Source of the DNA: Prevotella sp.
Lineage (GTDB): Bacteria > Bacteroidota > Bacteroidia > Bacteroidales > Bacteroidaceae
Direction: 5' to 3'
Assembly (NCBI GenBank): GCA_017475265.1
Contig: JAFVFY010000027.1
Coordinates: 124,001 to 188,000 of the forward strand
Length of the DNA: 64,000 nucleotides
Shown here: one piece after another, positions 14,529-30,409 of the stretch
Layout: every line of letters begins with the position of its first letter
How positions within the stretch are numbered: position 1 is the stretch's first letter
The notes under the pieces: generated by a model
What the model was told of the DNA's origin: nothing
What the model saw: only the letters and a program-made list of their open reading frames with translations
The model's database searches: none
Program-made: the position numbers and the translations under genes

Positions 14529-15848
14529 CTATTGCATTGTTACCGTCGGGTTGTCCAGGTCGGGCTCGGAGAGCACGTAGAGGTAAGTGGGCTGCACTGT
14601 GAAGGTGAAGGTATAGCAATGACCGCGTGTCGTAGTGAGTCTCTCTCCGAAAAAGTCGCGCAGGTCGATGGTATTCTCTGACTGGCAGCCCTCACGGATG
14701 AGGTTGCCCTCGGGATGAGCATTCGTCACATTTTTGTCGAACACGTCGTAAGTGCTGCGCAGCTTGAAGTACGTGTGGTCACCAGGCACGAAGCAGCCCA
14801 TGAACTCACTGGGGGCTGTGGTGGAAAGCGTGACATAGTTGGCCGGGTTATCCTTCCAGTCAAATATCGGTTCGGGAGCAACGTCGGCACTCGTATCGTC
14901 AGGAGTGAAGACAACGCTCCCTACGATGGGGGTTTTGCCGTCGGTGTTCTTCTTCAAAGTGATTCGGGCATTGTATTTTGCCTTTACGCCTGCGTTGGCA
15001 TCGGTAGAGTAGGCTATCAACTCGAGCTTGCGCAGCTTGATGGTGCGGAGTTTCGCATATTCGGAATCGATGGTGAACCCGAAGCGCAGACCGGAATAGA
15101 GGTGGTCGAAGAGCAGGAATACATAGTTCTTGGCCCCTTCGCTGGAATAGAATCTAACATCGAACTGTCCTTGCTGAAGGCCAGGGACGGTATAGCTGGC
15201 TACGTTGCTATTATAGGAGGGATCATCCTTGGCACCCACAATGACACACACGTCACTGGCCGTGACTGTTTTCAGGCCGATGATGTCGAGCACGGCACCG
15301 TTGCTGTAGCTGCCGTTGGCACTGACGGTGGCCGACTCGGCATCCTCCTCGGGAATGTATCCATAGATGTGGTAGTCGCCGCCAGGTATTTCGTCCAAGC
15401 TCATCTGCCACCTACTGCCTTCTGAAGTCTTCTTGTAGAAGAAGGTGGTCTCCAAAGGCGAGCCATCGTCTTTGGTGAGGAACACGCCAATAGACTTATT
15501 CACCAAGTCCTTCTGACCATCGAACATGCCGTTGATGTTATCGTAGGTGACAAAATGCTTTGTTTCATTCTTTGAATTGGTATACTCCGGCGTAGTCCAC
15601 GCACGTGTGGTGCTACTCATTGGTCGGCTGTCGCTGGGCTGTTCCACATCAGTGAACTCCGAGGCACAGTACTGCGCCTCTATGGTCACGCGCCCCCGGA
15701 GCTCCTCCTGCTCCGTGTCATCGGAGCATCCCAGCAGGAACAATGTCATCAACAGTCCACAACAGGTGTAGGGGCAGGCCCTGTGCCAGCCCGCTATATC
15801 GAATGGTGCAATATGTCGTAGCATCTCTTTCATGCTGTCAATTTTCAA
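14529..15848 (-). CDS. Fimbrillin-like lipoprotein (fimbrillin 5)
   Basis: 439 residues with a lipobox-like LFLLGC (Cys41 from this start). A shorter start at 15833 (MKEML) is also possible, because the first five codons overlap a heptanucleotide array. A Thr-Arg-Ala at 81-83 follows the acidic linker, as in the other fimbrillins here. The rest is beta-rich with no catalytic motif, consistent with the Bacteroidetes type V pilus subunit families (Mfa1/FimA/Mfa2-like). It lacks the clear WEYVG...IKYWD signature of its paralogues, so it may be a tip or anchor component. It follows fimbrillin 4 by 43 bp and precedes the giant gene by 76 bp on the same strand. Family call fairly sure; position in the fibre unknown. 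Confidence 0.7.
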   Translation of the reverse strand: MKIDSMKEMLRHIAPFDIAGWHRACPYTCCGLLMTLFLLGCSDDTEQEELRGRVTIEAQYCASEFTDVEQPSDSRPMSSTTRAWTTPEYTNSKNETKHFVTYDNINGMFDGQKDLVNKSIGVFLTKDDGSPLETTFFYKKTSEGSRWQMSLDEIPGGDYHIYGYIPEEDAESATVSANGSYSNGAVLDIIGLKTVTASDVCVIVGAKDDPSYNSNVASYTVPGLQQGQFDVRFYSSEGAKNYVFLLFDHLYSGLRFGFTIDSEYAKLRTIKLRKLELIAYSTDANAGVKAKYNARITLKKNTDGKTPIVGSVVFTPDDTSADVAPEPIFDWKDNPANYVTLSTTAPSEFMGCFVPGDHTYFKLRSTYDVFDKNVTNAHPEGNLIREGCQSENTIDLRDFFGERLTTTRGHCYTFTFTVQPTYLYVLSEPDLDNPTVTMQ

Positions 15849-15892
15849 TATTCAACGTTCAATCTTCAATTCTCAGTCTTCAATTTTCAATC
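15837..15892. repeat. Heptanucleotide array, 8 units (ttcaatN type)
   Basis: Eight consecutive 7-bp units, mostly ttcaatt/ttcaatc, fill almost the whole gap between two fimbrillin genes and run over the annotated start of the downstream one. No protein-coding signal in it. Confidence 0.8.
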
Positions 15893-17088
15893 TACCAGTT
15901 GTACACCGTATGTTTTGCCGTAAACTCTTCCCACTCCGTGAACGCCGACTGCACGGCATCAATGCTCACGCTCTTGTCCACGTGTACCTTAAAGATGTAG
16001 GTATAGGAGTATCCCGGCAGCCAGTCCATGAACTCTGCCGGCACGATGGTGCTCTTAGGATCGCCGCCGACGTACAACGAGAGGATGTAGGTGCCTTGGC
16101 CTATGGCAGGGAGCACGGTGTACACTATTCCTGTAGCATTTTCGTCGGCATTGAAGTAGGGAGAGGTGACTGTCCCATTTGTTTTTTCTACGGTCGCGTA
16201 GTAGTCCTGCGTGAACGCCGAGATACCCCCTGCCTCTGCGGTGGCATGGAACGACTCCCTGACTCCCGTACCTGTCAGAGGATAGGTGATGGTCACTTTG
16301 CCACTCGTCTTGATGGTGTTGTTGTCGGTGGGATGGAATCTCTTCTCTTTCAGCTCGGTTTCCTTTGCGAGGGTAGGATCCTCGAAAGTAAAGATGAAAC
16401 GAACCTTCGAGAACGGCTTGATGAACTCCAGCTCTACAGGCTGGCCAAACGGCCTGTGACCGTATGAGGTGTTGCCGCTGCTGAACCACAGGCGGCTGTA
16501 GTAGGGCACCGCTGTGGGGTCGGTGGCCTCCTTCTCGGCATCGGCATTGTAGGTCAGCTCGTAGACCTCATATTCGTCAGCAGTGCCGGCGTTGATTGTC
16601 TTTGTTGTTGCCGTCACCTGGTTGGTGCCGTCTGCTCCGGCCACGGCGAAGAAACGGTAGGCTTTCGCGTTCCAGTCCCAGTACTTGATGGTCTGCTCCT
16701 CCTGGCCAAGGGGTTGCTGGTTCACGTATTCCCAGCCGTCGCTGTTGGTGGTAGAGGTTCCGGCGGTGTTCGCCACCCAGTTCACCACGTAGCCAGGGAA
16801 CACCTCCTGATAGTCGGAGTAATCATCGTCGGTGGGGTTATTAGCAGTTCCTTCGTTGCAGGTCATGTTCTTGAAGCCATAGACCTTGAAGAAATTCACT
16901 TTGCTTTCCAGTGGGGAGCCGGCACGGGTGATGTCCTGCTCCTGCTGCTGGGCGGTGAAGGCGATGGGTATGCTGATCTCAGGCTCAGGCACCACTCCGC
17001 CCCCCTCCAGGGCGGCATCGTGGTCGCAACTGCCTAAGAGAACGGTCATCATGACCCACTGTGCAATATGTCTGAATCTAACAGTCAT
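15892..17088 (-). CDS. Fimbrillin family (Mfa1-like) lipoprotein (fimbrillin 4)
   Basis: 398 residues. The lipobox VLLGSC puts the acylated Cys at 21. Thr-Arg-Ala at 54-56 matches the position where FimA/Mfa1-type pilins are cut by an Arg-specific protease before donor-strand assembly. The WEYVN...TIKYWDWN signature near residues 112-134 is shared with fimbrillins 1-3. Expected route: lipoprotein export to the outer membrane, proteolytic trimming, then polymerisation on the surface. Its start overlaps the stop of the upstream AAA-ATPase gene by 4 bp, suggesting translational coupling. Fimbrillin 5 and the giant gene follow. Whether it is stalk, anchor or tip cannot be read from sequence alone. 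Confidence 0.85.
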   Translation of the reverse strand: MTVRFRHIAQWVMMTVLLGSCDHDAALEGGGVVPEPEISIPIAFTAQQQEQDITRAGSPLESKVNFFKVYGFKNMTCNEGTANNPTDDDYSDYQEVFPGYVVNWVANTAGTSTTNSDGWEYVNQQPLGQEEQTIKYWDWNAKAYRFFAVAGADGTNQVTATTKTINAGTADEYEVYELTYNADAEKEATDPTAVPYYSRLWFSSGNTSYGHRPFGQPVELEFIKPFSKVRFIFTFEDPTLAKETELKEKRFHPTDNNTIKTSGKVTITYPLTGTGVRESFHATAEAGGISAFTQDYYATVEKTNGTVTSPYFNADENATGIVYTVLPAIGQGTYILSLYVGGDPKSTIVPAEFMDWLPGYSYTYIFKVHVDKSVSIDAVQSAFTEWEEFTAKHTVYNW

Positions 17089-18662
17089 CTTTCTTCGATT
17101 TTCCAGTCTTCTATGGTTTCTGTCTTACTGCTAAAGCTTGCACCTATTTTGTATAGGGGGCGGCTGTCGGCCTCATAGGCGCGGGCATAGCCACAGTCGT
17201 TGATCTGTTGCAGGGCCTCTGCTGCCGTGCCGTCGAGCTTGAACTCAAAGACATAGATATACTTCGAGGTCTCCACGATGCAGTCGGCGTGGCCCTCCGA
17301 GAGATGCTTCTCCGTGTAGACGGTGTAGCAGGAGATGAGGCGCAGCAGCAGGTAGAACGTGTAGTGGAAATAGAGCTCACGGTCTTTCTGATCCTTCTTC
17401 GGCCTCATGGAGTAGGGTGTCTCGGCGAGGAAGGCGGTGAAGAGCCGCTGCACCAGGTCAAGGTCGGCGACGCGGAGAGCCTTCACCACCTTCTGAACCC
17501 ACGTCACGGCATTGTCGTTGAGCTGCAGGTAGTCGTTGGCAAGAAGGGTGATAAGTCCGCGGCGCACCTCCATATTGGGGAAGTCGAGGCGGTAGGTCTC
17601 AAAGTCGGGGTCGAAGCCCTTGACGGTGAGGTAACCCGCCTGGAAGATCATGGGCAGCGGCCTGGCAGTGTCGGCCTTGTAGTTGACGAACTCGTCGAGG
17701 GTATGCTCCACCTGTGTGAACGACATCACGTCCTCCTGTGTCTGCCCCAGCAGACGCACGGCGTATGTGGGTGTGCCAGACTGGAACCAGTAGTCCTGCA
17801 TCTTCATGTCGGCGAAAACGTTAAGCATGCTGAAGGGGTTGTAGATGTCAATCATACGGTTGCTGAAATGGTAGCCGTCGTAGCGCCGCTTCAGCATTTC
17901 CTTCGTCTCTTCCTCGCTCTTGCCCAGCGTGCTGGCCAGCTCGCGTATGGGTTCTGCAAAGGCAGTGTGCAGCTCTTCGGTGGTGATACCAAGCAATGTG
18001 TCGTAGCGGTTGGAGAGCGAGATGTCGTCGGGCTGGTTGGTGCCGCTGAACATCGTTACCTGCGAGAACTTTGTCACGCCTGTGAGCATGACGAATCGCA
18101 AGTGGCGGTCTTCAGCCTTGAAGATGGAGAAGAAACCTTTGAGCATTTCCCTGTTGTGGTCGAGCCGCTGTGCATCATCCGGGGCGTCAGTGCCGAGGAA
18201 GTCGAGTAATGGCTTGTCGTACTCGTCGACGAGCACCACCACCTCCTTGCCAGTCTTCTCGTGTATAGCTGGCAGCAGACGGCGGAAACGCAGGCCGAGG
18301 TCGTTGGTGTCCTCCGGCGTGATGTCGTATTTCTTCTCGGCCTCCTTTACCTGACTGAAGAGGTAGCAGCGCAAGGGGTCGTCCTCGGCTTTGAGCAGTC
18401 CGTTGAAATCGAAGGTGATAACGGGATAGTCCGTCCACTCCTGCTCCAAGTCCATAATCTTCAGACCCTCGAACAGGTCGCGGCGACCCTCAAAGTAGCA
18501 GCGCAGTGTGTCCATCAGCAGACTCTTGCCGAAGCGGCGCGGGCGGGCGAGGAAGTATACGCTACCCTTGGCCAACTCGTATATCAAGTCGGTCTTGTCC
18601 ACGTAGACGTAGCCACCCTTGCGGATCTTCTCAAAACTCTGTATACCTATCGGGTACTTCAT
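17085..18662 (-). CDS. AAA-ATPase-like / PD-(D/E)XK nuclease family protein (copy 1)
   Basis: 525 residues, the usual size of the AAA-ATPase_like plus DUF1703 family abundant in Bacteroidetes. The N-terminus reads MKYPIGIQSFEKIR, the P-loop is RPRRFGKSLL at about 40-49, and a Walker B-like VVVLVDEYDKPLLD lies near 145. The C-terminal part carries GHADCIV...VFEFKLDG, matching the D...ExK core of PD-(D/E)XK nucleases. The biochemical role of this family is not established; mobile or defence-related functions have been suggested. It lies immediately upstream of fimbrillin 4 with a 4-bp overlap, and paralogues occur at 30410 and 38361. Confidence 0.85.
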   Translation of the reverse strand: MKYPIGIQSFEKIRKGGYVYVDKTDLIYELAKGSVYFLARPRRFGKSLLMDTLRCYFEGRRDLFEGLKIMDLEQEWTDYPVITFDFNGLLKAEDDPLRCYLFSQVKEAEKKYDITPEDTNDLGLRFRRLLPAIHEKTGKEVVVLVDEYDKPLLDFLGTDAPDDAQRLDHNREMLKGFFSIFKAEDRHLRFVMLTGVTKFSQVTMFSGTNQPDDISLSNRYDTLLGITTEELHTAFAEPIRELASTLGKSEEETKEMLKRRYDGYHFSNRMIDIYNPFSMLNVFADMKMQDYWFQSGTPTYAVRLLGQTQEDVMSFTQVEHTLDEFVNYKADTARPLPMIFQAGYLTVKGFDPDFETYRLDFPNMEVRRGLITLLANDYLQLNDNAVTWVQKVVKALRVADLDLVQRLFTAFLAETPYSMRPKKDQKDRELYFHYTFYLLLRLISCYTVYTEKHLSEGHADCIVETSKYIYVFEFKLDGTAAEALQQINDCGYARAYEADSRPLYKIGASFSSKTETIEDWKIEER

Positions 18663-18670
18663 CTATTTTA

Positions 18671-18706
18671 TTTTCGATTTACGAATTTTCGATTTACGAT
18701 TTACGG
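18671..18706. repeat. Heptanucleotide array (tttacga type)
   Basis: Five units of 7, 7, 8, 7 and 7 bp (ttttcga, tttacga and variants) directly upstream of the AAA-ATPase start. The 18663-19073 interval holds this array, a CCGAGGCCCGGCCTCTTCGC repeat at 18756-18775 and the hairpin repeat at 18958. I see no gene in it. Confidence 0.65.
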
Positions 18707-18957
18707 GCTGGCACGGGGCCTGCCCCTACAGTTTCAATATTTAATTCTAATCGCTCCGAGGCCCGGCCTCTTCGCGTGCGCAAACATTAATATTTTTCTT
18801 TCTTCTTTAGCATATAATTACCATGTAATTGTTCATATAATTGCTGCGCGCAGCCATTAATGGTTAATTCGTGGTAATTCGTGTTCTAAATCTTTCTTTC
18901 TTCTTCTTTCCTTTCCCTCCCCCTTTGGGGGAGTTGGAGGGGGCTTTTCTTTTCTTT

Positions 18958-19070
18958 TGTAGCCCGTCGGGGAGTCGCGCTCGGCTTTGCCGCTTGCGTA
19001 GCGTAGTGGAGCAAGAACCCCGACGAGTTTGGTGTTGTCTGTTCGAGCGGATTTGCAATCCGCTCGCAGG
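18958..19070 (-). repeat. T-loop hairpin repeat, copy 1
   Basis: Begins TGTAGCCCGTCGGGGAGTCG (plus-strand reading) and continues through a GC-rich internal stem to a second palindrome at 19045-19065 with arms GAGCGGATT / AATCCGCTC around GCA-type bases. It ends 4 bp before the stop of the deleted PIN gene. Nearly the same block follows the intact PIN gene at 20013-20126. Confidence 0.8.
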
Positions 19071-19073
19071 GAA

Positions 19074-19259
19074 TTATTTTTCATTGAACAGCAGGCTGAG
19101 TCCCTGCCGACGGTAGAATGGGAAACGCAGGTCGCTCGACACGAGGGTCATCTTTTCTGTTATCGCGTGGGAGATGATCATGTGGTCGAAAGGGTCCTTG
19201 TGACCCTTGGCTACGTTGGTACGCAGCCGGGCATTTGTGTCAAGCAGATAGCGTGTCAT
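19074..19259 (-). pseudogene. PIN-domain toxin with 80-codon in-frame deletion (PIN-C)
   Basis: 61 residues. The first nine (MTRYLLDTN) and the last 52 are nearly identical to the intact 141-residue PIN protein at 20130-20555, while residues 10-89 of that protein are missing. The N-terminal acidic residue of the PIN site (LLDTN) and the C-terminal DPFDH and SSD acidic residues remain, but the middle acidic position and the core fold are gone. An active VapC-like nuclease is therefore unlikely. The start overlaps the upstream antitoxin-like gene by 4 bp, as in the intact module. The reading frame is unbroken, so it may still be translated. Confidence 0.8.
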
Positions 19260-19555
19260 AGCATGAAGTTTGGGTCATAGACAATGAATGAACCTTTGAG
19301 CCTTCTCGCGGCCTCCACGTATTTGTTCCCGGCAGGCAACGAGGCGTTCAAGGCCCTGTTCTCTTCAGGTGTGAGCTTTTTCTTCTTGCTCGTCCTTTTC
19401 TTGGTGGATACCGTCATGGTTCCCGATGGTGTGGATTTCTGCAGCATGAAGTTTGGGTCATAGACTTCAAATGAACCTTGGCGCTTCAAGGCCGCCTCCA
19501 TGTACTTGTTCTGTGGTACAATAGTTTTTTCCTTTGTTTCCATAGCTGCTGTCAA
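19256..19555 (-). CDS. Antitoxin-like protein with duplicated C-terminal motif
   Basis: 99 residues carrying the same block twice: NKYMEAALKRQGSFEVYDPNFML near 16-38 (first half) and a NKYVEAARRLKGSFIVYDPNFML-type block at the end (quoted in parts: NKYVEAARR, GSFIVYDPNFML). The 56-residue antitoxin of the intact module (20552-20722) has this block once, so this gene looks like two antitoxins fused in frame after loss of an intervening toxin. An internal Met47 (start 19417) would give a single-copy protein. The basic KKRTSKKKK stretch fits DNA binding or a disordered antitoxin tail. Coupled by a 4-bp overlap to the deleted PIN gene. Confidence 0.6.
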   Translation of the reverse strand: MTAAMETKEKTIVPQNKYMEAALKRQGSFEVYDPNFMLQKSTPSGTMTVSTKKRTSKKKKLTPEENRALNASLPAGNKYVEAARRLKGSFIVYDPNFML

Positions 19556-19573
19556 AATGTTTCTTTTTCTTCT

Positions 19574-19605
19574 TGTAGCCCGCCGGGGAGTCGCGCTCGG
19601 CTTTG
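19574..19605 (-). repeat. T-loop hairpin repeat, copy 2 (short)
   Basis: TGTAGCCCGCCGGGGAGTCG followed by cgctcggctttgg; the second palindrome is absent. It lies a few bases 3' of the PIN-B remnant stop (19610). Confidence 0.75.
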
Positions 19606-19609
19606 GTTG

Positions 19610-19807
19610 TTATTTCTTGTTCTCTATCAGTTCCAAGCCTTGGTTGCGGTAGAAAGGGAACTTGTTGTCTGCTGATATGAGTGGTATGCGATTGGTCAAC
19701 GCGTGACTGATAATCAGATGGTCTGACGGGTCGTAGTGCTCTTGTGCCTCATTGATACGTAGTTTCGCGTAAGTCTCATAGTGCTCTAGTCCAAGTTGGT
19801 TATCATT
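19610..19807 (-). pseudogene. 5'-truncated PIN-domain toxin remnant (PIN-B)
   Basis: A frame open from 19807 to a TAA at 19610-19612 translates to residues such as YAKLRINEAQ, DPSDHLIISHALTN and FPFYRNQGLELIENKK. These align with the C-terminal third of the intact PIN toxin at 20130 (DPFDHMIISHAI, FPFYRRQGLSLL). There is no start codon and the frame overlaps the end of the antitoxin-like gene upstream, so the N-terminal two thirds have been lost. It is diverged from PIN-A/C, hence a separate module rather than a copy. Confidence 0.7.
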
Positions 19808-19920
19808 CTAACTGCATCGTCGAGGGCTTCTATATCCTCTTCGGTCAGTGGTTCCCAGCCTCTTTGCTTAGCATACCACTCCATCTGTTCAAATCTGTTT
19901 TTAAATTTCATTTCTTCCAT
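19786..19920 (-). CDS. Small antitoxin-like protein of decayed PIN-B module
   Basis: 44 residues from ATG at 19920 (MEEMKFKNRFEQMEWYAKQ...). A longer frame to 19992 exists but would run through repeat DNA. Acidic C-terminus EEDIEALDDAVRMITNLD, no recognised domain. It lies directly upstream of, and slightly overlaps, the truncated PIN-B toxin, which is the basis for calling it an antitoxin; no family match is claimed. Confidence 0.4.
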   Translation of the reverse strand: MEEMKFKNRFEQMEWYAKQRGWEPLTEEDIEALDDAVRMITNLD

Positions 19921-20012
19921 ATTCTTTCTTTTTAAGGTGATAATCTTTCTTTGCGTCTCAATAGGCACCGGCCTCTTCGCGTACGCGAACATTTATTTAT
20001 TTCTTTTCTTCT

Positions 20013-20126
20013 TGTAGCCCGCCGGGGAGTCGCGCTCGAACTTGTTCGCTTGCGTATCGAAGAGGAACAAGAACTCCGACGAGTTTGGTGTTGTCTGTTC
20101 GAGCGGATTTGCAATCCGCTCGCAGG
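20013..20126 (-). repeat. T-loop hairpin repeat, copy 3
   Basis: TGTAGCCCGCCGGGGAGTCG, an internal GC-rich arm, then a palindrome at 20101-20121 (GAGCGGATT / AATCCGCTC arms). It ends 4 bp from the PIN-A stop. A CGGCCTCTTCGCG segment related to those at 18756 and 25383 precedes it at 19970. Confidence 0.8.
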
Positions 20127-20129
20127 GAA

Positions 20130-20555
20130 TTATTTTTCATTGAACAGCAGGCTGAGCCCCTGTCGCCGGTAGAAGGGGAAGCGCTGGTCGCTCGATACGA
20201 GGGTCATCTTTTCTGTAATGGCGTGGGAGATAATCATGTGGTCGAAAGGATCCTTATGTCCTTTGGCCACGTTGGCACGCAGTCTGGCAAAGGTGAGGAG
20301 GTGCTCCTCCTTGAACGGCAGGATGCCAATGTAGAACTCCTTGTTGATAGACTCCACCATCTGCTGAGCGTTCTTCCACCTGCGGGTGTCGAAACTCTTG
20401 TTGTTGTAGCCCACGACCATCTCCATGACAGACGCAGAGCTTAGATAGAGCAGAGCATCTGGCTCACGGAGCAACGCGAATACGTCTTTCTTGATTAAAT
20501 CGACATCAGTTGCCCAATATATGAATATGTTCGTGTCCAGCAGATAGCGTGTCAT
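20130..20555 (-). CDS. PIN-domain (VapC-like) toxin, intact (PIN-A)
   Basis: 141 residues, the usual PIN-toxin size. MTRYLLDTNIFIYW carries the first catalytic Asp, the region near VMEMV carries a Glu, and the DPFDHMIISHA block supplies the third acidic position. VSSDQRFPFY is the typical terminal segment. Such proteins are ribonucleases inhibited by the cognate antitoxin. The start overlaps the antitoxin stop by 4 bp (ATGA). Sequence from 20013 to its C-terminal codons is duplicated at 18958-19259. Confidence 0.85.
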   Translation of the reverse strand: MTRYLLDTNIFIYWATDVDLIKKDVFALLREPDALLYLSSASVMEMVVGYNNKSFDTRRWKNAQQMVESINKEFYIGILPFKEEHLLTFARLRANVAKGHKDPFDHMIISHAITEKMTLVSSDQRFPFYRRQGLSLLFNEK

Positions 20556-20722
20556 AACATGAAGTTTGGGTCATACACGATGAATGAACCTTGGTGTTTC
20601 AAGGCTGCTTCTACGTATTTGTTTTGTACAGGCAAAGCAGAATTGGGAATCATGCTTTCCTCTGTCGTGAGTTTTTTCCTTCTCCTCACCGTTTTCTTTT
20701 TCACTGTCGTTGTCGTTTCCAT
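20552..20722 (-). CDS. Antitoxin of the PIN-A module (56 aa)
   Basis: Start ATG at 20722; 56 residues beginning METTTTVKKKTVRRRKK and ending GSFIVYDPNFML. The basic N-terminal arm could bind operator DNA; the hydrophobic/acidic tail is a plausible toxin-binding segment. The stop overlaps the PIN-A start by 4 bp. The same C-terminal block is present twice in the gene at 19256-19555. No named family is assigned; the role is inferred from the pairing and overlap. Between this gene and the next repeat (20723-20821) I see nothing. Confidence 0.65.
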   Translation of the reverse strand: METTTTVKKKTVRRRKKLTTEESMIPNSALPVQNKYVEAALKHQGSFIVYDPNFML

Positions 20723-20821
20723 ATCAGATATGTTTTAGTCTTTCTTGTTATGGATGAGTTCTCATGGCCTCATGTAAACTCCTTATTAAGTTAAACGTGT
20801 TCCAAAATCACTTTTTTCTTT

Positions 20822-20920
20822 TGTAGCCCGTCGGGGAGTCGCGCTCGGCTTTGCCGCTTGCGTAGCGTAGCGGAGCAAGAACTCCGGCGAGCTTGGTGTT
20901 GTTTGTAGGAGCGGATTTGT
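20822..20920 (-). repeat. T-loop hairpin repeat, copy 4
   Basis: TGTAGCCCGTCGGGGAGTCG followed by the same GC-rich internal arm as copy 1, then a partial second palindrome (gagcggattt). It lies 12 bp 3' of the 37-aa ORF stop. Confidence 0.8.
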
Positions 20921-20932
20921 ACTTGTCCTTTC

Positions 20933-21046
20933 CTATAGCAAGTTGTTCACTCTCATCCAACGTCTGCCCGAAAGGGTTAGCCATAGATATATGAGCGCTA
21001 TCAGACACGGCAGACCTACAAATAGAGCACCTAAATAAACTCCCAT
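20933..21046 (-). CDS. 37-aa single-pass membrane peptide
   Basis: Start ATG at 21046, stop at 20933. MGVYLGALFVGLPCLIALIY is followed by LWLTLSGRRWMRVNNLL: one hydrophobic helix with a basic C-terminal end. AGGA lies about 9-12 bp upstream. ACTTGTCCTTTC occurs on the plus strand at both flanks (20921 and 21050), a short direct repeat bracketing the ORF. Size and shape fit a small membrane protein or a type I toxin-like peptide, but there is no family match and no antisense RNA evidence. It sits between two hairpin repeats like the TA modules around it. Confidence 0.5.
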   Translation of the reverse strand: MGVYLGALFVGLPCLIALIYLWLTLSGRRWMRVNNLL

Positions 21047-21063
21047 ATTACTTGTCCTTTCTT

Positions 21064-21162
21064 TTATTGGTTCACTTCATGGTGCGGTTTTTGTTCTGTG
21101 TCTGCCGCTACCAGTTGTATCTGGGCTTTCTGTGACTTTGCTCTTTCACGTCTTGTCGTCAT
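21064..21162 (-). CDS. 32-aa basic peptide ORF upstream of the membrane peptide
   Basis: Start ATG 21162; MTTRRERAKSQKAQIQLVAA then a short polar tail ending HHEVNQ. It lies 17 bp upstream of the 37-aa ORF on the same strand, within the same repeat-bounded interval. No homologue recognised. It may be a leader peptide, a partner, or chance. Confidence 0.3.
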   Translation of the reverse strand: MTTRRERAKSQKAQIQLVAADTEQKPHHEVNQ

Positions 21163-21189
21163 TAGCTTACATCATTTGTCTTTTCTTCT

Positions 21190-21265
21190 TGTAGCCCGCC
21201 GGGGAGTCGAACCCCGACGAGCTTGATGCATTGTCAGTATTGCAAATGCTAATACTCCGTGTCCC
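21190..21265 (-). repeat. T-loop hairpin repeat, copy 5
   Basis: TGTAGCCCGCCGGGGAGTCG followed directly by AACCCCGACGAGCTT, giving a ~12-bp stem (with G-T wobble) around the loop agtcgaa. A second hairpin follows (AGTATT / AATACT around gcaaatgct), again with a gcaaat core but a different stem from copies 1 and 3. Confidence 0.8.
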
Positions 21266-21272
21266 CACCCGC

Positions 21273-21306
21273 ATACCCAAGGCGCGGGGGAACGCGCCAA
21301 GGGTAT
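21273..21306 (-). terminator. Hairpin 3' of fimbrillin 3, probable terminator
   Basis: ATACCC-AA-GGCGCG, loop GGGGAA, CGCGCC-AA-GGGTAT: two 6-bp stems separated by a symmetric AA/AA internal loop, 18 bp beyond the fimbrillin 3 stop. The strength and position suit transcription termination or 3' end protection; no U-tract is obvious. Confidence 0.55.
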
Positions 21307-21323
21307 TGGGGAAGGATAGAGAG

Positions 21324-23204
21324 TTAAGGAGTAGGAACTGCTGCTACCTTGATAATCTTGTAGGTCTTAACCTGCTTGTAATATGTTCCAGATGAGTATG
21401 TACCACTATTCTGTATAGTGTATGTGCCAGAGCTTTCTAAGTAGTAACCAACGAGCGAAGCATCTGCTGCAAGTGTTACAGCTTCGTAGGTTACAAATTC
21501 GATAGCATAGGTGTTTTCCTTAGCACCTGGTAACTTCACAGCATTAATTGTCTTTGTTGTACCATCTTCAGCAGGAACACTAGTTACAACAGAAGGTGAT
21601 TCTGTATTCGTGAAATATGTTCCATCGTTGGACGTAGTGACATTTGTGCATGTTATCTTAGCAGTTCCAGCTGGTGTTACTGCAAGTCTTTCGGCTACAG
21701 AAGCTTCGGTGATCGGGAAATTGTCTGCATCAGAGGTTGTTACCTGATAAATCTGTACATAATTAGTAGCATTGTTTATTCCCAATTGTGGTGTCTGGAC
21801 AGTGCTACCCACCACGAATGTCGCATAGATGTCGTTGCCAGCCTCGTACTCATTCTTGTCTGTTACATACTTGCCTCCGCTGACGCCGAAGGTGGTGATA
21901 CTGGGTTCAGTAACGGTGGTAATGTACTCAGCCTTTCCATCAGCAGCCTCTATGACAGCAGCGTCGAAGGTGATGGGATTCAAGTCATCATCAGTGATCT
22001 TGAAGAGGTAAGTGTATTTGTAGTTGGGTTTCCAGGCCAGATACTTGCCAGGAATCTCAGCGGTCTTGCCTGTGATGGTGATGGTCTCCTTCGTAATCTC
22101 GTTGTAGAGCGTGTAGTTCACCTTCAGCTTTAGGTTCGTCGTGTTGCCTTCCTGTGGCATCACGATGGTGTAGGTTCCACCGTTGGTGTCGTAGGTGGCA
22201 GTTGTGGCAGTCTCACCGAGGAACTTTGCGGCAACGGCAGGTTCTGCCGAAGGATTACCAACAGTCAGTGTGCTATAGTTCGTGCCGAGGACAAGGTCGG
22301 TGGCAGGCGTTCCGCTGACTCCGACGATGGGCTGATTCAAAGCTGCATTAGTGCCATTGCCGTAAGTCACGGTAAGCGTACCCTCGTAGTTCGTACCACT
22401 GATGTTCGGACAAACGGCACCGAAAGCGTTTGTAGGAGTTGAAGCACCGTCATTATACTCAGTCGTACCGTTCTGCTTGAAGAAATGGATAGCCGATACC
22501 TTGTATCCTGGAATCGTCTCAAACACACCCACGCGCACGTGAGACTGCGTATTGCGGAAATTCATTTTCACGGCATTGTGGCTGTAGCCATCGCCCTTGG
22601 CGATGTTGTTGCGGTCAGCAAAGTACAGCTTGGAAAGGTCGGGATAGTTGTCGCTGGCATCCTTCGCCAACACAATGCTGTAGCCTTTGGCATACTGGTC
22701 GCTGCCGCTGGTGGTCTTTGTAATCGTTACACGACCATTCTGGATATCAGCAGGCAAAGCTGAGACAGCGGTGAAGGTGTAGCTTGATGCTGCATCGTCC
22801 CAGAACTTAATGGACTGTACATCAGTGGTGGATGTGGTGATGTTGCTTTGCTCGGCAGAAGTCCAGCTAAGCCCCACATACTCCCAATCATCGGTGTTCG
22901 ATGTGGTAGTATAGGCAGTAGAGGCAGTGTAAGTGACCTTGTAGTTTTGGAACACAAGATTACCTGCAGCAGGAGCAGTACCATCCGTTTCACCCTTCTC
23001 GCCGTAGACGATAAACTGACTGCTGAGTGCTGTGGCGGCAGCTGCATCCTCAAGAGCACGTGTCGGAGTAGGCACATTGAAGCCAAAGCTAATGGCGGTG
23101 TTCTCATTTGCAATGCGCAGGTCTTCGTCTCCCACGAAGTCCTCGCTTGTGCAGCTGGCCAGTCCTAGGAGGGCAACTGCGAAGTAGATATACTTTTTCA
23201 TCAT
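21324..23204 (-). CDS. Fimbrillin family (Mfa1-like) lipoprotein (fimbrillin 3)
   Basis: 626 residues. Lipobox LLGLASC gives Cys18; the second Met is an equally good start. Thr-Arg-Ala at 48-50 marks the likely Arg-protease maturation site. WEYVGLSW...SIKFWDD is the signature shared with fimbrillins 1, 2 and 4. The middle segment PITFDAAVIEA...PSITTFG is shared with fimbrillins 1 and 2, so these three arose by duplication. Long and Thr/Val-rich, consistent with a beta-sandwich pilin with extra C-terminal domains. It follows fimbrillin 2 by 88 bp, with the variant hairpin repeat between them. Likely surface fimbria subunit. Confidence 0.88.
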   Translation of the reverse strand: MMKKYIYFAVALLGLASCTSEDFVGDEDLRIANENTAISFGFNVPTPTRALEDAAAATALSSQFIVYGEKGETDGTAPAAGNLVFQNYKVTYTASTAYTTTSNTDDWEYVGLSWTSAEQSNITTSTTDVQSIKFWDDAASSYTFTAVSALPADIQNGRVTITKTTSGSDQYAKGYSIVLAKDASDNYPDLSKLYFADRNNIAKGDGYSHNAVKMNFRNTQSHVRVGVFETIPGYKVSAIHFFKQNGTTEYNDGASTPTNAFGAVCPNISGTNYEGTLTVTYGNGTNAALNQPIVGVSGTPATDLVLGTNYSTLTVGNPSAEPAVAAKFLGETATTATYDTNGGTYTIVMPQEGNTTNLKLKVNYTLYNEITKETITITGKTAEIPGKYLAWKPNYKYTYLFKITDDDLNPITFDAAVIEAADGKAEYITTVTEPSITTFGVSGGKYVTDKNEYEAGNDIYATFVVGSTVQTPQLGINNATNYVQIYQVTTSDADNFPITEASVAERLAVTPAGTAKITCTNVTTSNDGTYFTNTESPSVVTSVPAEDGTTKTINAVKLPGAKENTYAIEFVTYEAVTLAADASLVGYYLESSGTYTIQNSGTYSSGTYYKQVKTYKIIKVAAVPTP

Positions 23205-23253
23205 CTCTTAAAATTTTAACGCGTGAATATTATTTTCAATTATAACAAGGTGT

Positions 23254-23284
23254 AACCAAGCGAGGAGTCGAACCTCGCTTGGTT
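23254..23284 (-). repeat. T-loop hairpin repeat, divergent copy 9
   Basis: A 12-bp perfect stem (AACCAAGCGAGG / CCTCGCTTGGTT) around loop agtcgaa, preceded by tgt so that TGTA aligns exactly with the other copies. The stem sequence differs from the GC-rich copies, yet pairing is perfect and the loop is the same. It sits 9 bp 3' of the fimbrillin 2 stop. Confidence 0.75.
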
Positions 23285-23292
23285 TGAGAGGG

Positions 23293-25326
23293 TTATGATG
23301 CCGACTTTACGCGGATGATCTTCACACCGTATGCGTTCTGGTTGTCAAGATAGGTCTTCTTGTAATACACACCAGGAGCAAAGGTTGAAGGAGCAGCAGT
23401 TGTGCAATCCTTGTCGGTGAAGTAGAGTGTCGTGCTCCAGTCTGCCGGTGCAGTGGTCAGTGTGTTGGCAATGCCAACAGCCTTCTGAGTGCCGGTAGAG
23501 ATGGTGTAGACGTATGCGTAGACCTTGCCAGCAGTGGGAGTGAACTCAAAGGCTGTATTGGCTGTAACTGTGATGTTGTTACCATCAGCACCGGGGATAG
23601 CGGTGGGTAATGCTGTACCTGTTGTTACCTCTGTGAGTGTCCAACCGTTCATGGGAACAGGAGTAGCATCGAGGCTTACAATGTTCAGAGCGTCCATAAC
23701 CTCGGCTTCAGAAACGACACCGTCCTTATCCAAACCATTAGAAGCAGCAACTTCATAGAGCTTACCCTTGGTGTTAAGATCCGTAGCTAATGCACCATCG
23801 GTCATGACCTGAACGTAAATCTTACCTTTGGAAGCATCATATTCCTCGTCGGTGTTCACATGACCTTTCTGGTAGGTAGTGATGCTGGGAGTAGCCACAG
23901 TGGTGATGGTGCTCTGAGTGTAGTCCTGCGCTTCCATGACGACAGCGTCGAAGGTGATGGGATAGAGACCTGCGGGATCAGTGGCGTTCTGAGCTGCATT
24001 AGCCGTGTTTGTCCAACCGTTGGTGTTGTCGCTAATCTTGAAGATGTAGGTGTAGGCATAGTTGCTCTTCCATGCAGCATAAATGGCAGGCACAAATGCG
24101 GTGGCTCCATAGACATGAATCACCTCGCCTGATTCGTCAATAGACTCAAGGGTATAGTCGATGCGGAGTTCGAGGACAGTACCATCTTCATTAGGCATGG
24201 CAATCTGGTAATAGTTGTTGGCAGCAGCACCAGCAAAGGATGCTTGTGCAGCAGAACGGCCAAGCCAGATGTTACCCGCAGTTTTCTCTTTGTACTGTTT
24301 TTCAGTATAATTCAGCGTGGAGAAATCCTTCGTAGTCACCTTTCCTGTAGCGTCAGCAGCAAAGATGACGTGAGCCTTGTTGTAATCGCTATTGCCAATG
24401 TTACTGGCACCAATGGTGGGGAAATAAACGGTGTACTGTCCTGAGGTGTAGAAGTAGTCCTTGTCAGCTGAACCGCCTGTAGTGAACAGGGTGGCATTAG
24501 CAACTTTATCTCCAGCTGTGGTGGAATTAAGATAGGTAGATGCATTCGTGTAGAACTTCACATCCTTGACACTATAGCCGGGAATCGTCTCATAGAGTGC
24601 AACACGAACCTTGGAGGCCAGGGCACGGAACTTGAGCTGAATCTCATCCTGGAACTTAGGCTGAACAGGAGACATGGAAGCGCCAGTCTTGTAAGCTGTC
24701 ACCATGTCAGCAATGTAGCACTTCTGAAGGTCAGCAGCTGCGCCTTTGAGGGTATAGGCTCCAGTAGTTGTACCAGCATTAGCTGCACTAATAGCAGAAA
24801 CCAGCACATCACCATCGCTTGGGTCACCTGTCGTGATTACTGTGGCATCACCTGTAGAGTAGGCAATGAAGTCATACTGGTCAGCAGTATAGTCCCAGTA
24901 CTTGATAGACTGATCATTTCCAGCAATGCCTGAAGGAGCAAGAGCCGTCAAACCAACATACTCCCAATTGGAAGTGTTAGACAGCGTGGTGCCAGCAGTG
25001 TTGGCAGTCCAGTTTACCTGATAGTTGTCAAAAACCAAACCTGTGGAAGGGACACCAGGTGTGGTGATAGCACCATCAGTGTAAACAGTGGAAGTTCCTG
25101 TAGCTCCTTTAAAACCACCAACGATAAACTTGTTGTTGAGGATACTTGCTGCGTCGGCACCATAATGGTCTGCACGGGTTGTGCCCTTGAACATAGAGCT
25201 AAACGATATGGCCTCAGAACCCATATCGGTCTTCACGTCAGGCCCGTTGTCCACGATGCTGTCGTTGGTACATCCGACCATTAACATAATGGTGGAAGCG
25301 AGGAAAAGATACTTTTTCAAAATCAT
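23293..25326 (-). CDS. Fimbrillin family (Mfa1-like) lipoprotein (fimbrillin 2)
   Basis: 677 residues; lipobox MLMVGC gives Cys19. Thr-Arg-Ala is at 50-52, followed by a DAASILNNKFIVGGFKG segment closely like fimbrillin 1. The NWEYVG...QSIKYWDYTADQYDFIA signature is present (quoted in parts), as are C-terminal PITFDAVVMEA and TPSITTYQ. All support membership of the Mfa1-like fimbrillin family, polymerising surface pilins exported as lipoproteins. It is one of three near paralogues in tandem with fimbrillins 1 and 3, separated from fimbrillin 1 by two TA modules. No catalytic residues are seen. Confidence 0.9.
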   Translation of the reverse strand: MILKKYLFLASTIMLMVGCTNDSIVDNGPDVKTDMGSEAISFSSMFKGTTRADHYGADAASILNNKFIVGGFKGATGTSTVYTDGAITTPGVPSTGLVFDNYQVNWTANTAGTTLSNTSNWEYVGLTALAPSGIAGNDQSIKYWDYTADQYDFIAYSTGDATVITTGDPSDGDVLVSAISAANAGTTTGAYTLKGAAADLQKCYIADMVTAYKTGASMSPVQPKFQDEIQLKFRALASKVRVALYETIPGYSVKDVKFYTNASTYLNSTTAGDKVANATLFTTGGSADKDYFYTSGQYTVYFPTIGASNIGNSDYNKAHVIFAADATGKVTTKDFSTLNYTEKQYKEKTAGNIWLGRSAAQASFAGAAANNYYQIAMPNEDGTVLELRIDYTLESIDESGEVIHVYGATAFVPAIYAAWKSNYAYTYIFKISDNTNGWTNTANAAQNATDPAGLYPITFDAVVMEAQDYTQSTITTVATPSITTYQKGHVNTDEEYDASKGKIYVQVMTDGALATDLNTKGKLYEVAASNGLDKDGVVSEAEVMDALNIVSLDATPVPMNGWTLTEVTTGTALPTAIPGADGNNITVTANTAFEFTPTAGKVYAYVYTISTGTQKAVGIANTLTTAPADWSTTLYFTDKDCTTAAPSTFAPGVYYKKTYLDNQNAYGVKIIRVKSAS

Positions 25327-25420
25327 TCTTAGTTTTTATGTTAATAATGTTTGTTATATAATGTTCTGTTTTCAATTGCTCCGAGGCCCGGCCTCTTCGC
25401 CCGCAATTATTTTCTTCTTT

Positions 25421-25460
25421 TGTAGCCCGCCGGGGAGTCACCCTTCGGGATGCCGAGTGG
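25421..25460 (-). repeat. T-loop hairpin repeat, copy 6 (partial)
   Basis: TGTAGCCCGCCGGGGAGTCA then acccttcgggatgccgagtggcaaatc, so the T-loop itself is altered in this copy. It is preceded by CCGAGGCCCGGCCTCTTCGC at 25381-25400. It lies 4 bp 3' of the PIN toxin stop (25465). Confidence 0.7.
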
Positions 25461-25464
25461 CAAA

Positions 25465-25878
25465 TCAGGTCGGGCGGAGAGGATATACGAACTCCTGTAT
25501 TGTAACTAACGTGACAGGAGGGAAACTCACGTCGCGGAGCGCCCTGAAGTGCTTGTCATTCGACACGAGGTACTCTGCTTGCCCACATACAGCACAGTCA
25601 ACGAACTTGTTGTCGTCAGGATCCTGAGAAATCATGTTGAACCGCCATACGGGCGAGACCCGAACCAGATTTTTCCTGTTCAGAAGTGCCTGGATAATGC
25701 AGTCGGCAAAATATGGAGATGTCTTCTCGGAGAGGATTTCTTCATATTCCATAAGAACCTCATTAGAGACACATATCTCCAACCTCCCTTCGAGAAACTC
25801 CGTCCAAACACTATGGTAAGGACTCCTCGACGGGAGAATGGCCAACAGGCAGTTCGTATCAATGACTACTCTTCTCAT
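25465..25878 (-). CDS. PIN-domain toxin, PIN_3-type
   Basis: 137 residues from ATG 25878 (MRRVVIDTNCLLAIL); a longer frame to 25905 would read back into the antitoxin. IDTN carries the first catalytic Asp, EEILSEK an acidic residue, and DPDDNKFVDCA the C-terminal acidic cluster typical of the DUF132/PIN_3 putative toxins. Expected activity: Mg-dependent RNA cleavage held in check by the upstream antitoxin. Its start overlaps the antitoxin stop by 4 bp. It appears intact. Confidence 0.85.
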   Translation of the reverse strand: MRRVVIDTNCLLAILPSRSPYHSVWTEFLEGRLEICVSNEVLMEYEEILSEKTSPYFADCIIQALLNRKNLVRVSPVWRFNMISQDPDDNKFVDCAVCGQAEYLVSNDKHFRALRDVSFPPVTLVTIQEFVYPLRPT

Positions 25879-26105
25879 TGTGCTTCTCTGTATGGTGTCC
25901 GCCAATGTTCTTGAAGAATCCGCTCTATGGCCTCGCCGTTAAGCGTTCCCTCATCCCAGAGACGATCGGCCTCCTGCTGTACTTTCTTGGCGTAGAAGTC
26001 TGCCAGCACATCTTTCAACTCAGAAACTGTCTGCTCGCTTCCACAATAGTTGAACATCTCTAAGAGGTGCAACTGTACAGGGTTTATAGTTCTTGTATTC
26101 ATCAT
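25875..26105 (-). CDS. Antitoxin of the PIN_3 module
   Basis: About 76 residues from ATG 26105 (MMNTRTINPVQLHLLEMF); upstream codons of the longer frame are repeat DNA. The body, VSELKDVLADFYAKKVQQEADRLW in two parts (VSELKDVLADFYAKKV, QQEADRLWDEG), and the C-terminus ERILQEHWRTPYREAQ resemble the short antitoxins paired with PIN_3 toxins in Bacteroidales. The 4-bp stop/start overlap with the toxin gene supports co-translation. Confidence 0.75.
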   Translation of the reverse strand: MMNTRTINPVQLHLLEMFNYCGSEQTVSELKDVLADFYAKKVQQEADRLWDEGTLNGEAIERILQEHWRTPYREAQ

Positions 26106-26138
26106 AAGCTTACATCCTGATTGTATTTTTTTCTTCTT

Positions 26139-26250
26139 GTAGCCCGCCGGGGAGTCGAACTCCGACGAGCTTGGTGTTGTTTGTACGAGCGGATTCTTGA
26201 GGCCCCGTGGTGGCAATCGGCAGAGCCGGGTGGCAAATCCGGTCGAGGGG
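26139..26250 (-). repeat. T-loop hairpin repeat, copy 7
   Basis: TGTAGCCCGCCGGGGAGTCG with AACTCCGACGAGCTT, then tggtgttgtttgtacgagcggattc and a terminal segment ggtggcaaatccggtcgag that also ends copies 6 and 8. It ends 2 bp from the HigA stop. Confidence 0.8.
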
Positions 26251-26252
26251 GA

Positions 26253-26618
26253 TTAAACTCCCAGCACAATGGCGGGGTCAATGTTCAGCTTACGGCTTAT
26301 CTCGCGTCCTATTTGTAGTGACGGCTCACCCTTGCCAGTGATGATTTTGTTTATGCCGGCAATGCTGATGCCCAGCATTTCGGCTAACGCCTTCTTCGTC
26401 AGTCCCATTTCACACATCCGCAACTGGATGCTTTCTATCAGTGACGGTGCAGTGATAGGATAGTGTTCATCCTCATACTCTTCCACAAGGTCGGAAATCA
26501 TGTCCAATTCGATGTAGTTCTTGTCCGTTGTAGGAGTATCATCGTGAACCAAGGGCAGCAGTTCGTCAATCCTTTTCAATGCCACGCGATAGGCGGCTTC
26601 ATCTTTCAGTTGTGCCAT
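26253..26618 (-). CDS. higA: HigA antitoxin, helix-turn-helix
   Basis: 121 residues. The first ~60 are the HigA dimer/toxin-binding part; residues about 62-115 form an XRE-type HTH (LTKKALAEMLGISIAGINKI with GKGEPS following). HigA neutralises HigB and represses the operon. The order toxin-then-antitoxin with a 5-bp gap is the usual higBA arrangement. Both partners look complete, so this is likely the best-preserved TA system in the window. Confidence 0.88.
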   Translation of the reverse strand: MAQLKDEAAYRVALKRIDELLPLVHDDTPTTDKNYIELDMISDLVEEYEDEHYPITAPSLIESIQLRMCEMGLTKKALAEMLGISIAGINKIITGKGEPSLQIGREISRKLNIDPAIVLGV

Positions 26619-26623
26619 ATCTT

Positions 26624-26920
26624 CTATATGTTTTGAATGTTTTGGATGTGATTGTATTCGGCGTGCGTTCCCACGAAGCGGATATATACCCTTTTGGGTG
26701 TGAACTGAATTACCACAACAAGCCTATAGTCATTGCCTTTGATGTTGAACACGTAATGCTGGTTACCGACATTGTCAACAGAGTTGAACGTTTTTTTCAC
26801 GTCAGCAAATTGTGTCCACGAAGCCTTTCGCGTCTTCTCATACCATGACAACAAGGCCGGTTTGGCTTGAGGTTGTTCGGTGTAGTATTCCACTAATTTG
26901 CTTTTCGAGATGATATGCAT
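26624..26920 (-). CDS. higB: HigB toxin (RelE-fold mRNA interferase)
   Basis: 98 residues, the HigB family length. Features are SWYEKTRKASWTQFADVKKTF, given here in parts (SWYEKTRKASW, FADVKKTFNSVD), then HYVFNIKGNDYRLVVVIQF, VYIRFVGTHAEYN and the terminal HIQNI. This matches type II HigB toxins that cleave mRNA on the ribosome. First gene of the higBA pair, bounded by repeats on both sides. Complete. Confidence 0.9.
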   Translation of the reverse strand: MHIISKSKLVEYYTEQPQAKPALLSWYEKTRKASWTQFADVKKTFNSVDNVGNQHYVFNIKGNDYRLVVVIQFTPKRVYIRFVGTHAEYNHIQNIQNI

Positions 26921-26977
26921 ACATCAATAGCTTTTGAAAACTTGTATGGTTCAGTAGATCCCTACCGTGGTTCTTCT

Positions 26978-27162
26978 TGTAGCCCGCCGGGGAGTCGAAC
27001 CCCGCGCGGGCTTGTAGGTTGCATTTCAAATGCTTTTATTCACTGCGCCCGGATTCTTGCTTCGTTTTACTACGCAAGCGTCACCCTTCTTGCGTCCCGC
27101 TGGTAGCAAGCGTCCAAAGGCCGAGCGCAGGATGCCGAGCGACAAATCCGGTCGAGCAGGAA
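26978..27162 (-). repeat. T-loop hairpin repeat, copy 8 (fullest)
   Basis: TGTAGCCCGCCGGGGAGTCG followed by AACCCCGCGCGGGCTTG: outer 7-bp stem AGCCCGC/GCGGGCT and inner CGGGG/CCCCG around agtcgaa. A second small palindrome follows (gcatttcaaatgc), then GC-rich filler and the tail gacaaatccggtcgagcagg. It ends 8 bp from the fimbrillin 1 stop (27170). Confidence 0.8.
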
Positions 27163-27169
27163 TAGATAA

Positions 27170-29824: not shown

Positions 29825-30022
29825 AATTGTAAAGAATTAAAAAGTAAATAAAAAGGGTTAATTAAAAAGTTTGTTCATTATTTAAGTTTAATGTTCGAGG
29901 GTCCGGTTATAGATGGTTTTGTCTTGTTCCATCGTTCCGTGAGGGTCGTCAATCTTTGTCGTTAAATTTATGTCTTTATTCTTCTTGTCAGGTTTTCGGG
30001 GCTTCGCTTGGTGTCCCAGATG

Positions 30023-30367: not shown

Positions 30368-30409
30368 ATATCTTTGTTTTTTTACGCTAATTGAGATAAA
30401 TGTTTGTCG

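Follow-up and report, generated by a model that had tools for sequence, protein, structure and literature searches.

Why do the fimbrillin-like genes and toxin-antitoxin (TA) modules of one Prevotella locus all end in the same short repeat? The window analysed here is a stretch of 64,000 nucleotides (nt) from Prevotella sp. (assembly GCA_017475265.1, contig JAFVFY010000027.1, positions 124,001 to 188,000), part of contig C36 of a 4.75-Mb genome, and it contains an 8-kb array in which this repeat, here named E, recurs. A first-pass annotation compared the array with integron cassettes and named a shared 3′ RNA element as an equal option. The second option is now strongly supported: the stems of E covary across species and its loop is nearly fixed, so what is conserved is a structure and not the target sequence of a recombinase. 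Hairpin E is best read as a mimic of a tRNA minihelix, resembling the upper half of tRNA formed by the acceptor and T arms, and we hold with high confidence that it is a tRNA-minihelix-like element under structural selection.

The 19-mer TGTAGCCCGYCGGGGAGTC has eight matches on the plus strand of the window, all in one orientation within 8 kb and starting at 18958, 19574, 20013, 20822, 21190, 25421, 26138, and 26978; its Y position is C in six copies and T in two, and shuffled sequences gave a mean of 0.00 matches (100 shuffles). These are the eight same-orientation copies that the first-pass annotation had listed, and the diverged ninth copy that it mentioned is also real, lying at 23251 with a different stem and an unchanged loop. 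Beyond the eight window copies, a search of the 4.75-Mb genome for the 19-mer at up to two mismatches found none, and the repeat is confined to 8 kb rather than spread at random through the genome, the contrary case that the annotation had considered. Because the array genes are on the minus strand, E comes after stop codons in gene sense, as had been proposed, but the suggested spacing of a few to about 20 base pairs (bp) is too short for most of the five genes measured, with stop-to-stem distances of 8 nt (fim2), 44 nt (PIN-A), 81 nt (HigA), 100 nt (fim3), and 158 nt (fim1). In gene sense, the 19-mer represents only the 3′ half of the hairpin. The copies at 18958, 20013, and 20822 have an insert of 38–39 nt within the loop, that at 19574 is truncated, and that at 25421 has no loop.

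In gene sense, hairpin E has a 12-bp stem and a 7-nt loop, UUCGACU, followed mostly by A-C-A-A and then an A-rich tail; the TTCGACT loop is common to the hairpins of the window copies and of relatives. A scan of the window and related loci (446 kb) with a T-loop consensus and a 12-bp stem gave 24 hairpins, of which two were set aside as chance matches (L087 4412 and L099 5283) and 22 were kept, and the same scan over 251 kb of other sequence from this genome gave no hairpin. In the 22 hairpins, 87.9% of the cells are paired and 11 of 12 pairs vary on both sides, in an ungapped register that misplaces bulged copies. A further alignment, A5, consists of 31 unbulged copies hand-picked from model and scan matches, and adds other genes, a UGCGACU loop variant, and a second family of the order. 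In A5, 98.1% of 372 cells are paired (shuffled mean 67.5%, 0 of 500 as high), a percentage that is ascertained because the copies were partly found by requiring pairing; the variety of pair types is less affected. Both sides have changed in 110 cells (shuffled mean 27.4, standard deviation 4.1, 0 of 500 as high). Such changes are seen in 11 of the 12 pairs, a count that is weak alone, since shuffles averaged 8.8 and 10 of 500 reached it. When the register was slid, pairing fell to 35–52%, and RNAalifold returned the same 12 pairs from the alignment with no structure supplied.

The tRNA T-loop consensus is U54-U55-C56-R57-A58-N59-Y60, and the UUCGACU loop of E fits it. A wider scan gave 84 hairpins, three of which lack the tail and were dropped by eye (L087 4412, window 41097, and L143 1211); 81 were left, and the base counts rest on the 67 without a bulge or insert. 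Among 74 short and bulged copies, the loop is UUCGACU in 67 and UGCGACU in seven, the scan having demanded one of the two. The stem stops at 12 bp, with bases −1 and 73 being A-A in 53/67 and a standard pair in 5/67. In the tail, A73 is found in 59/67, C75 in 8/67, and A76 in 58/67, and C74 is present in 67/67 hairpins as well as in 33/33 native tRNA genes of this genome examined (L166–L195), some of which do not encode CCA. A single extra stem base occurs in seven copies; counting from the loop, it follows the fifth pair in six of them and the sixth pair in one, and is therefore placed between the counterparts of the T-stem and the acceptor stem, where tRNA has its other arms. The hairpin of fim1 (26969–27020) is a T-loop minihelix of this kind, with the extra base between 7-bp and 5-bp stem parts. 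The covariance model weakly matched the 3′ ends of native tRNA-Glu, tRNA-Gln, tRNA-Arg, and transfer-messenger RNA (tmRNA). A full cloverleaf was not found in the window (0 tRNA genes by ARAGORN), and Rfam gave no match in eight related loci (gathering score) or in window 17000–31000 (E-value ≤ 1).

E usually sits in sense between co-directional genes, 3′ of pilus-like and surface-lipoprotein coding regions. The open reading frame (ORF) upstream of the 81 hairpins is fimbrillin-like in 43, a rate that is not unbiased because some loci were fetched for their fimbrillin-like genes; it is a TA protein of the window in two and another ORF in 34, frequently with a lipoprotein leader, and none was found for two. 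Under a simple greedy ORF caller, 76/78 hairpins share their strand with the upstream gene and 71/79 with the downstream one; the baseline, all close gene neighbours of these loci with the hairpin pairs counted in, is 280/367 co-directional. The stop-to-stem distance, relatives included, is 9–15 nt in 20/63 cases and reaches a maximum of 258 nt. A GC-rich hairpin shortly after stop codons could be a transcription terminator, but the tail is A-rich, TTTT occurs within the 20-nt tail in 0/67 hairpins, the downstream gene is mostly co-directional, and of the 16 sites that a terminator scan gave in window 17000–30500 (12.5 expected), none coincides with E in gene sense. We regard this explanation as very improbable.

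E is conserved across species, and a second family of the order carries it too. The 19-mer at up to one mismatch was found in its own genome only, among 100 genomes searched (own included), and a 20-mer form was found in a genome collection on six contigs, all from metagenome-assembled genomes of Prevotella or Prevotellaceae, two of them from rumen. Strong hairpins lie on the contig that bears the fim1 match in 11 of the 17 other genomes with such a match; in G143 the hairpin match on this contig is weak, and in G149 the match is at another gene. In the genome surveys, scoring was confined to a portion of the first-look candidates (150 of 1396 in one case). Model R1 matched 63/150 genus genomes at E-value ≤ 0.01, and 10 of 15 mostly weak loci examined hold tRNA or tmRNA. 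Model R2 matched 44/299 genus genomes at E-value ≤ 1e-4, including a tRNA-Glu (G021) and, in G106, a hairpin that lacks the T-loop and neighbours a real one. At the order level, 12/295 genomes matched at E-value ≤ 1e-4; the real hairpins are those of the own genome and of G360 and G442 of family f111, after fimbrillin-like genes, and the remaining nine matches are seven tRNA genes and two others (L202 and L206). Outside the array, the own genome has a hairpin with a UGCGACU loop at C8:12680, after a 162-amino-acid (aa) lipoprotein that appears cupin-like by eye; R2, run on 685 kb of this genome including the window, otherwise gave only a tRNA-Glu and three matches at E-value 2 or worse.

Several observations weigh against a tRNA-minihelix mimic acting on mRNA. 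The loci were gathered with models that included the loop and the tail, and the statistics on both are partly ascertained. The UGCGACU variant is off the tRNA consensus at position 55. The site where RNase P would cut looks different from that of native tRNAs, with A or U at base +1 in 52/67 hairpins against G in 28/33 tRNAs, and with A at base −1 in 59/67 hairpins against T in 20/33 tRNAs. C75 is scarce in the hairpins, but native tRNAs too have it in only 10/33. The neighbour is on the opposite strand for 2/78 upstream and 8/79 downstream genes, and 8/81 hairpins are inside an ORF called by the simple caller. No hairpin was found in the survey of G111, G141, G151, and G188 or in the fimbrillin-like locus stretches of G111, G141, and G151, although weak ones could be missed in both. 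In addition, much of what is seen in E would also be expected of a simple protective hairpin or of a site bound by a T-loop-binding protein.

One alternative is the protective hairpin. A generic 3′ protective or spacer stem would block 3′ exonucleases after the cut of another RNase, its resemblance to tRNA being incidental, and the stable stems of E, in sense after stop codons and mostly between co-directional genes, agree with such a role, as do stem-loops at processed sites described in PMC4423207. A generic stabiliser, however, needs neither a fixed 7-nt loop, a 12-bp length, A-A at −1/73, nor C74. The loop also sets E apart from hairpins of the same dimensions: in the window and at fimbrillin-like loci, perfect or near-perfect hairpins with a 12-bp stem and a 7-nt loop have the T-loop 10 times (either strand), UGCGACU three times, and each of 10 other loops once. 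The 251 kb of other own-genome sequence holds 12 such hairpins with 12 different loops and no T-loop. We consider a generic hairpin rather unlikely, though deserving of serious weight.

At the array locus, the number of fimbrillin-like genes differs between species, as do TA, Bro-N, 23S rRNA IVP-like, and AAA-ATPase_like inserts. In the relative L085, a single hairpin joins the 5′ flank of the window fim1 hairpin to the 3′ flank of the HigA/AT3 hairpin: in MAFFT alignments, its 5′ flank has 33/45 identical columns with that of the fim1 hairpin (vs. 16/50), and its 3′ flank has 49/67 with that of the HigA/AT3 hairpin (vs. 32/63). HigBA plus one hairpin is therefore a present/absent unit between species, with the switch inside the hairpin. 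The two window hairpins have about 30 bp in common, so that homologous recombination between repeats would suffice without a dedicated recombinase. Protein identity between L085 and the window is 97% for AT3 and 58% for fim1, suggesting a recent transfer of the TA unit. At L085 9257–9319, the PIN_3 toxin is shortened by an internal deletion relative to window 25465–25878, and its antitoxin-like partner is 97% identical.

The cassette array of the first-pass annotation holds in part: gene units vary between species, one of them with a switch inside the repeat, but an integron or a dedicated recombinase is not supported. Integron cassettes are one-gene units, each ended by a folded attC repeat, and are rich in TA modules, and the units here are similar. 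What the copies here share corresponds to the 3′ portion of a tRNA-like sequence, as in tRNA att sites. These parallels, the switch in E, and the varied inserts at the locus could point to a site-specific recombination site, either integron-like or a tRNA-type att site of a tyrosine integrase. Against this, the search for tyrosine recombinases that the annotation had proposed placed none of the 13 Phage_integrase matches of the genome on contig C36, and no tyrosine or serine recombinase family matched among the 30 window ORFs scanned. No attC core site was recognised by eye in the array, with no attC model run. Moreover, pairing is kept across species whereas stem sequence is not, and many E copies follow lone lipoprotein genes with no array visible. 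We rejected the integron/attC reading on the lack of an integrase match on the contig and on the conservation of pairing rather than stem sequence, and regard a recombination site of either type as highly unlikely. A weak PDDEXK_2 match at 50722 is below the cut-off. A viral collection had 0 matches to the 19-mer, and a phage link is thus not seen.

Repetitive extragenic palindromic (REP) elements and bacterial interspersed mosaic elements (BIMEs), with their RAYTs, are intergenic palindromes after genes with GTAG on one strand. On the plus strand, E likewise shows GTAG, within the 19-mer, and an imperfect palindrome, as would an REP-type element that a RAYT (Y1) transposase mobilises, and the genome has three Y1_Tnp matches. 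A second hairpin, the GCGGATTTGCAATCCGC type, is dispersed and flanks a Y1 gene on contig C20. The repeats beside that gene are of this type and not E, however, and the contig of E has no Y1 match. E is also oriented with transcription, confined to 8 kb (8/8 copies) rather than dispersed in this genome, and conserved in structure, its stems covarying between species. A scan for GTAG plus a palindrome (321 kb) found nothing at threshold and missed E itself, and was too strict. REP/RAYT was rejected for E and appears extremely unlikely; the other hairpin in the same gaps fits REP instead. The GCGGATTTGCAATCCGC-type hairpin, likely an REP family in view of its dispersal and its position on both sides of the Y1 (RAYT-like) gene, lies at window 19044–19066 and 20100–20122 and also in L013, L016, L019, L022, and L024. 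Another dispersed repeat, containing AATCCGTAAAATCCGTTGTTGAA, is found at window 41810–41930 and 42520–42650 and recurs on several contigs.

The features of the array and its borders are collected in Table 1. In gene order, the array consists of fim1, HigBA, AT3/PIN_3 (degenerate E), fim2, fim3, and a short ORF (insert-type E), and ends with PIN-A (insert type), the PIN-B remnant (truncated E), and the PIN-C remnant (insert type), each followed by E. The hairpins of fim1, fim2, and fim3 are intact, and those of the TA units are of the insert type or damaged in 4/5. Insert-type copies have their T-loop split between TTC and GACT by a segment of 30–39 nt, a form that recurs in other species (L034 2319–2400, L143 847–930, L144, L145, and L146); four genomes have near-identical copies of 84 nt, which follow small ORFs ending in WDDWDE in three of the genomes. 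Folding gave z < −2 in 5/6 insert-type copies and z −0.30 in one, and no common fold was seen. The degenerate form at 25412–25455 is the same in L085. Window 19074–19992 holds two decaying copies of the PIN-A module in tandem with PIN-A; PIN-C, with 93% identity over PIN-A residues 87–141, keeps the start and end and has lost an internal part.

The TA labels of the first-pass annotation are backed by Pfam (PIN, PIN_3, HTH_3, and HigB_toxin). Its fimbrillin label found no fimbrillin-family match in Pfam, NCBIfam, or PDB; we write fimbrillin-like because the label is based on lipoprotein leaders and on two neighbouring genes, DUF5119 and DUF3575, which are linked to fimbriae. For fim2, a PDB profile search gave 0 matches, and Pfam gave only the lipoprotein leader and weak unrelated matches. 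Relatives share the order DUF3575, DUF5119, fimbrillin-like gene(s), P398, P439, and giant protein, with hairpins after the fimbrillin-like genes. A further AAA-ATPase_like/PDDEXK_9 gene lies at 38361–39938, and the number of such genes at the locus varies in relatives (L091).

Table 1. Genes and E copies of the array, its borders, and the recurrent genes of the locus (window positions; R1, E-value with model R1).
Feature	Position	Strand	Basis or remark
DUF3575 protein, recurrent upstream gene	33356..35029	-	
DUF5119 protein, recurrent upstream gene	32016..33275	-	
AAA-ATPase_like/PDDEXK_9 protein, right array border	30410..31975	-	
fim1, fimbrillin-like lipoprotein, 884 aa	27170..29824	-	ORF; match in 18/150 genus genomes, own included
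E of fim1	26969..27020	-	R1 3.9e-12; fold -25.8 kcal/mol, z -3.79
HigB toxin	26624..26920	-	PF09907 9.4e-33
HigA antitoxin, HTH_3	26253..26618	-	PF01381 1.6e-11
E after HigBA, short type	26129..26179	-	R1 4.4e-16
AT3, antitoxin-like ORF	25875..26105	-	no Pfam match; 97% aa identity in L085
PIN_3 toxin	25465..25878	-	PF13470 9.8e-20
Degenerate E after PIN_3 module	25412..25455	-	19-mer kept (25421-25439); loop and 5′ arm lost
fim2, fimbrillin-like, 677 aa	23293..25326	-	ORF; relatives 31-81% identity
E of fim2, diverged stem, same loop	23242..23292	-	R1 2.1e-12
fim3, fimbrillin-like lipoprotein, 626 aa	21324..23204	-	LPAM_1
E of fim3, short type	21181..21231	-	R1 1.4e-16; fold z -4.46
E, insert type (split T-loop), 3′ of very short ORF	20813..20901	-	R1 4.5e-9
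Antitoxin-like ORF of PIN-A	20552..20722	-	translation
PIN-A toxin, 141 aa	20130..20555	-	PF01850 1.7e-15
E after PIN-A, insert type	20004..20093	-	R1 2e-7; fold z -0.30, no better than shuffles
PIN-B module remnant	19612..19992	-	57% identity over PIN-A residues 84-141
Truncated E after PIN-B remnant	19565..19610	-	19-mer; weak R1 match, 0.12
PIN-C module remnant: antitoxin-like ORF and shortened PIN ORF	19074..19555	-	repeats D3, D5
E after PIN-C, insert type	18949..19037	-	R1 2e-9; fold z -3.72
AAA-ATPase_like/PDDEXK_9 protein, left array border	17085..18662	-	
P398, recurrent downstream gene	15892..17088	-	
P439, recurrent downstream gene	14529..15848	-	
Giant protein, 4289 aa, recurrent last gene	1583..14452	-	first 1500 aa compared

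What might E do? E probably acts on mRNA processing or stability. We also think it reasonably probable that this tRNA-minihelix mimic sets subunit dosage from its place between cistrons, either by recruiting the enzymes of tRNA maturation or by protecting the end of the upstream mRNA. Action through the tRNA-maturation enzymes themselves is plausible, and we propose it with reserve. Transcription through E, and any cleavage there, we infer from the DNA. In this model, E would be a docking site on a polycistronic mRNA for the machinery that matures tRNA, namely RNase P, RNase Z, or both, possibly with CCA addition. The transcript would be cut beside the hairpin, or its upstream end shielded, and the pilin-like cistrons would be present at a dosage unlike that of the other cistrons; a cut next to E would give the pilin-like mRNA a strong stem at its 3′ end and detach the cistrons downstream. 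Positions −1 and +1 are unlike those of tRNA while the 3′ side is alike, and, if this is relevant, a 3′ cut or mere binding would be likelier than a 5′ cut. In this genome, E has multiplied locally, with one copy per unit, as TA modules entered the operon, and the alike copies would double as homology for the gain and loss of units.

According to PMC11143913, hairpins composed of the acceptor stem, T-stem, and T-loop are classical model substrates of RNase P, which E. coli RNase P RNA cuts with or without protein; a tetraloop in place of the T-loop reduces and shifts the cleavage, and the identity of −1 varies, with A−1 common in some bacteria. The AT1/pMini-type substrates treated there share with E the acceptor-plus-T-stem helix, the T-loop, and single-stranded flanks, but they are laboratory constructs, whereas E is natural and located between genes. 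Such constructs carry RCCA and G+1, and E has A or U at +1 and mostly ACAA. Human RNase Z clamps the acceptor-T 'minihelix' (PMC11996679), and RNase Z of B. subtilis contacts the T-arm and acceptor stem and is inhibited by CCA (PMC7479834). The same paper states that two archaeal RNase Zs require a mature 5′ end, a poor fit with a hairpin inside an mRNA that adds to the points against our reading. RNase Z is present in one genus genome (G106).

E also differs from the natural systems to which it may be compared. The bacterial mRNA sites known to be cut by RNase P are individual sites, alike in their location in polycistronic mRNA, whereas E is a recurrent covarying class. The tRNA-like structures of the 3′ end of turnip yellow mosaic virus (TYMV) RNA, of MALAT1/mascRNA, and of the tRNA domain of tmRNA are fuller tRNA folds at an RNA end; these viral, long non-coding RNA, and tmRNA structures share tRNA mimicry with E, which is a minihelix only and lies between bacterial genes. 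PMC11143913 cites a polycistronic mRNA with a site dependent on RNase P (ref. 220, Alifano 1994). In a cellulosome operon, intergenic processing and stem-loops set subunit dosage (PMC4423207), an arrangement similar to that proposed here in that intergenic stem-loops determine the subunit ratios of a surface complex; the abstract of that paper does not mention a tRNA-like loop. Literature searches gave no title on such an element among the matches listed, the tables of the RNA-motif catalogue PMC8040213 lying outside the part covered, and a search for fimbrillin together with tRNA-like found no paper.

Taken together, E may tentatively be proposed, with some doubt, as a cis-acting RNA of a new bacterial class: a naturally occurring minihelix that would serve as an mRNA 3′-end or intercistronic processing signal, dosing the pilus and surface-lipoprotein subunits of Bacteroidales, and that would spread by homology, letting TA pairs plug in with their own signal. 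The tRNA-maturation enzymes would then read E, perhaps with CCA addition to the mRNA end. Acceptor/T-arm minihelices serve as minimal substrates in enzyme studies and are of interest as supposed remnants of early tRNA; here, a minihelix is a conserved, covarying part of bacterial operons with species-specific stems, and the puzzling 'cassette array' is explained without a recombinase. If tRNA enzymes act on E, the dosage of surface proteins would be linked to tRNA processing, and E would show, as a natural test, which substrates RNase P and RNase Z take in vivo.

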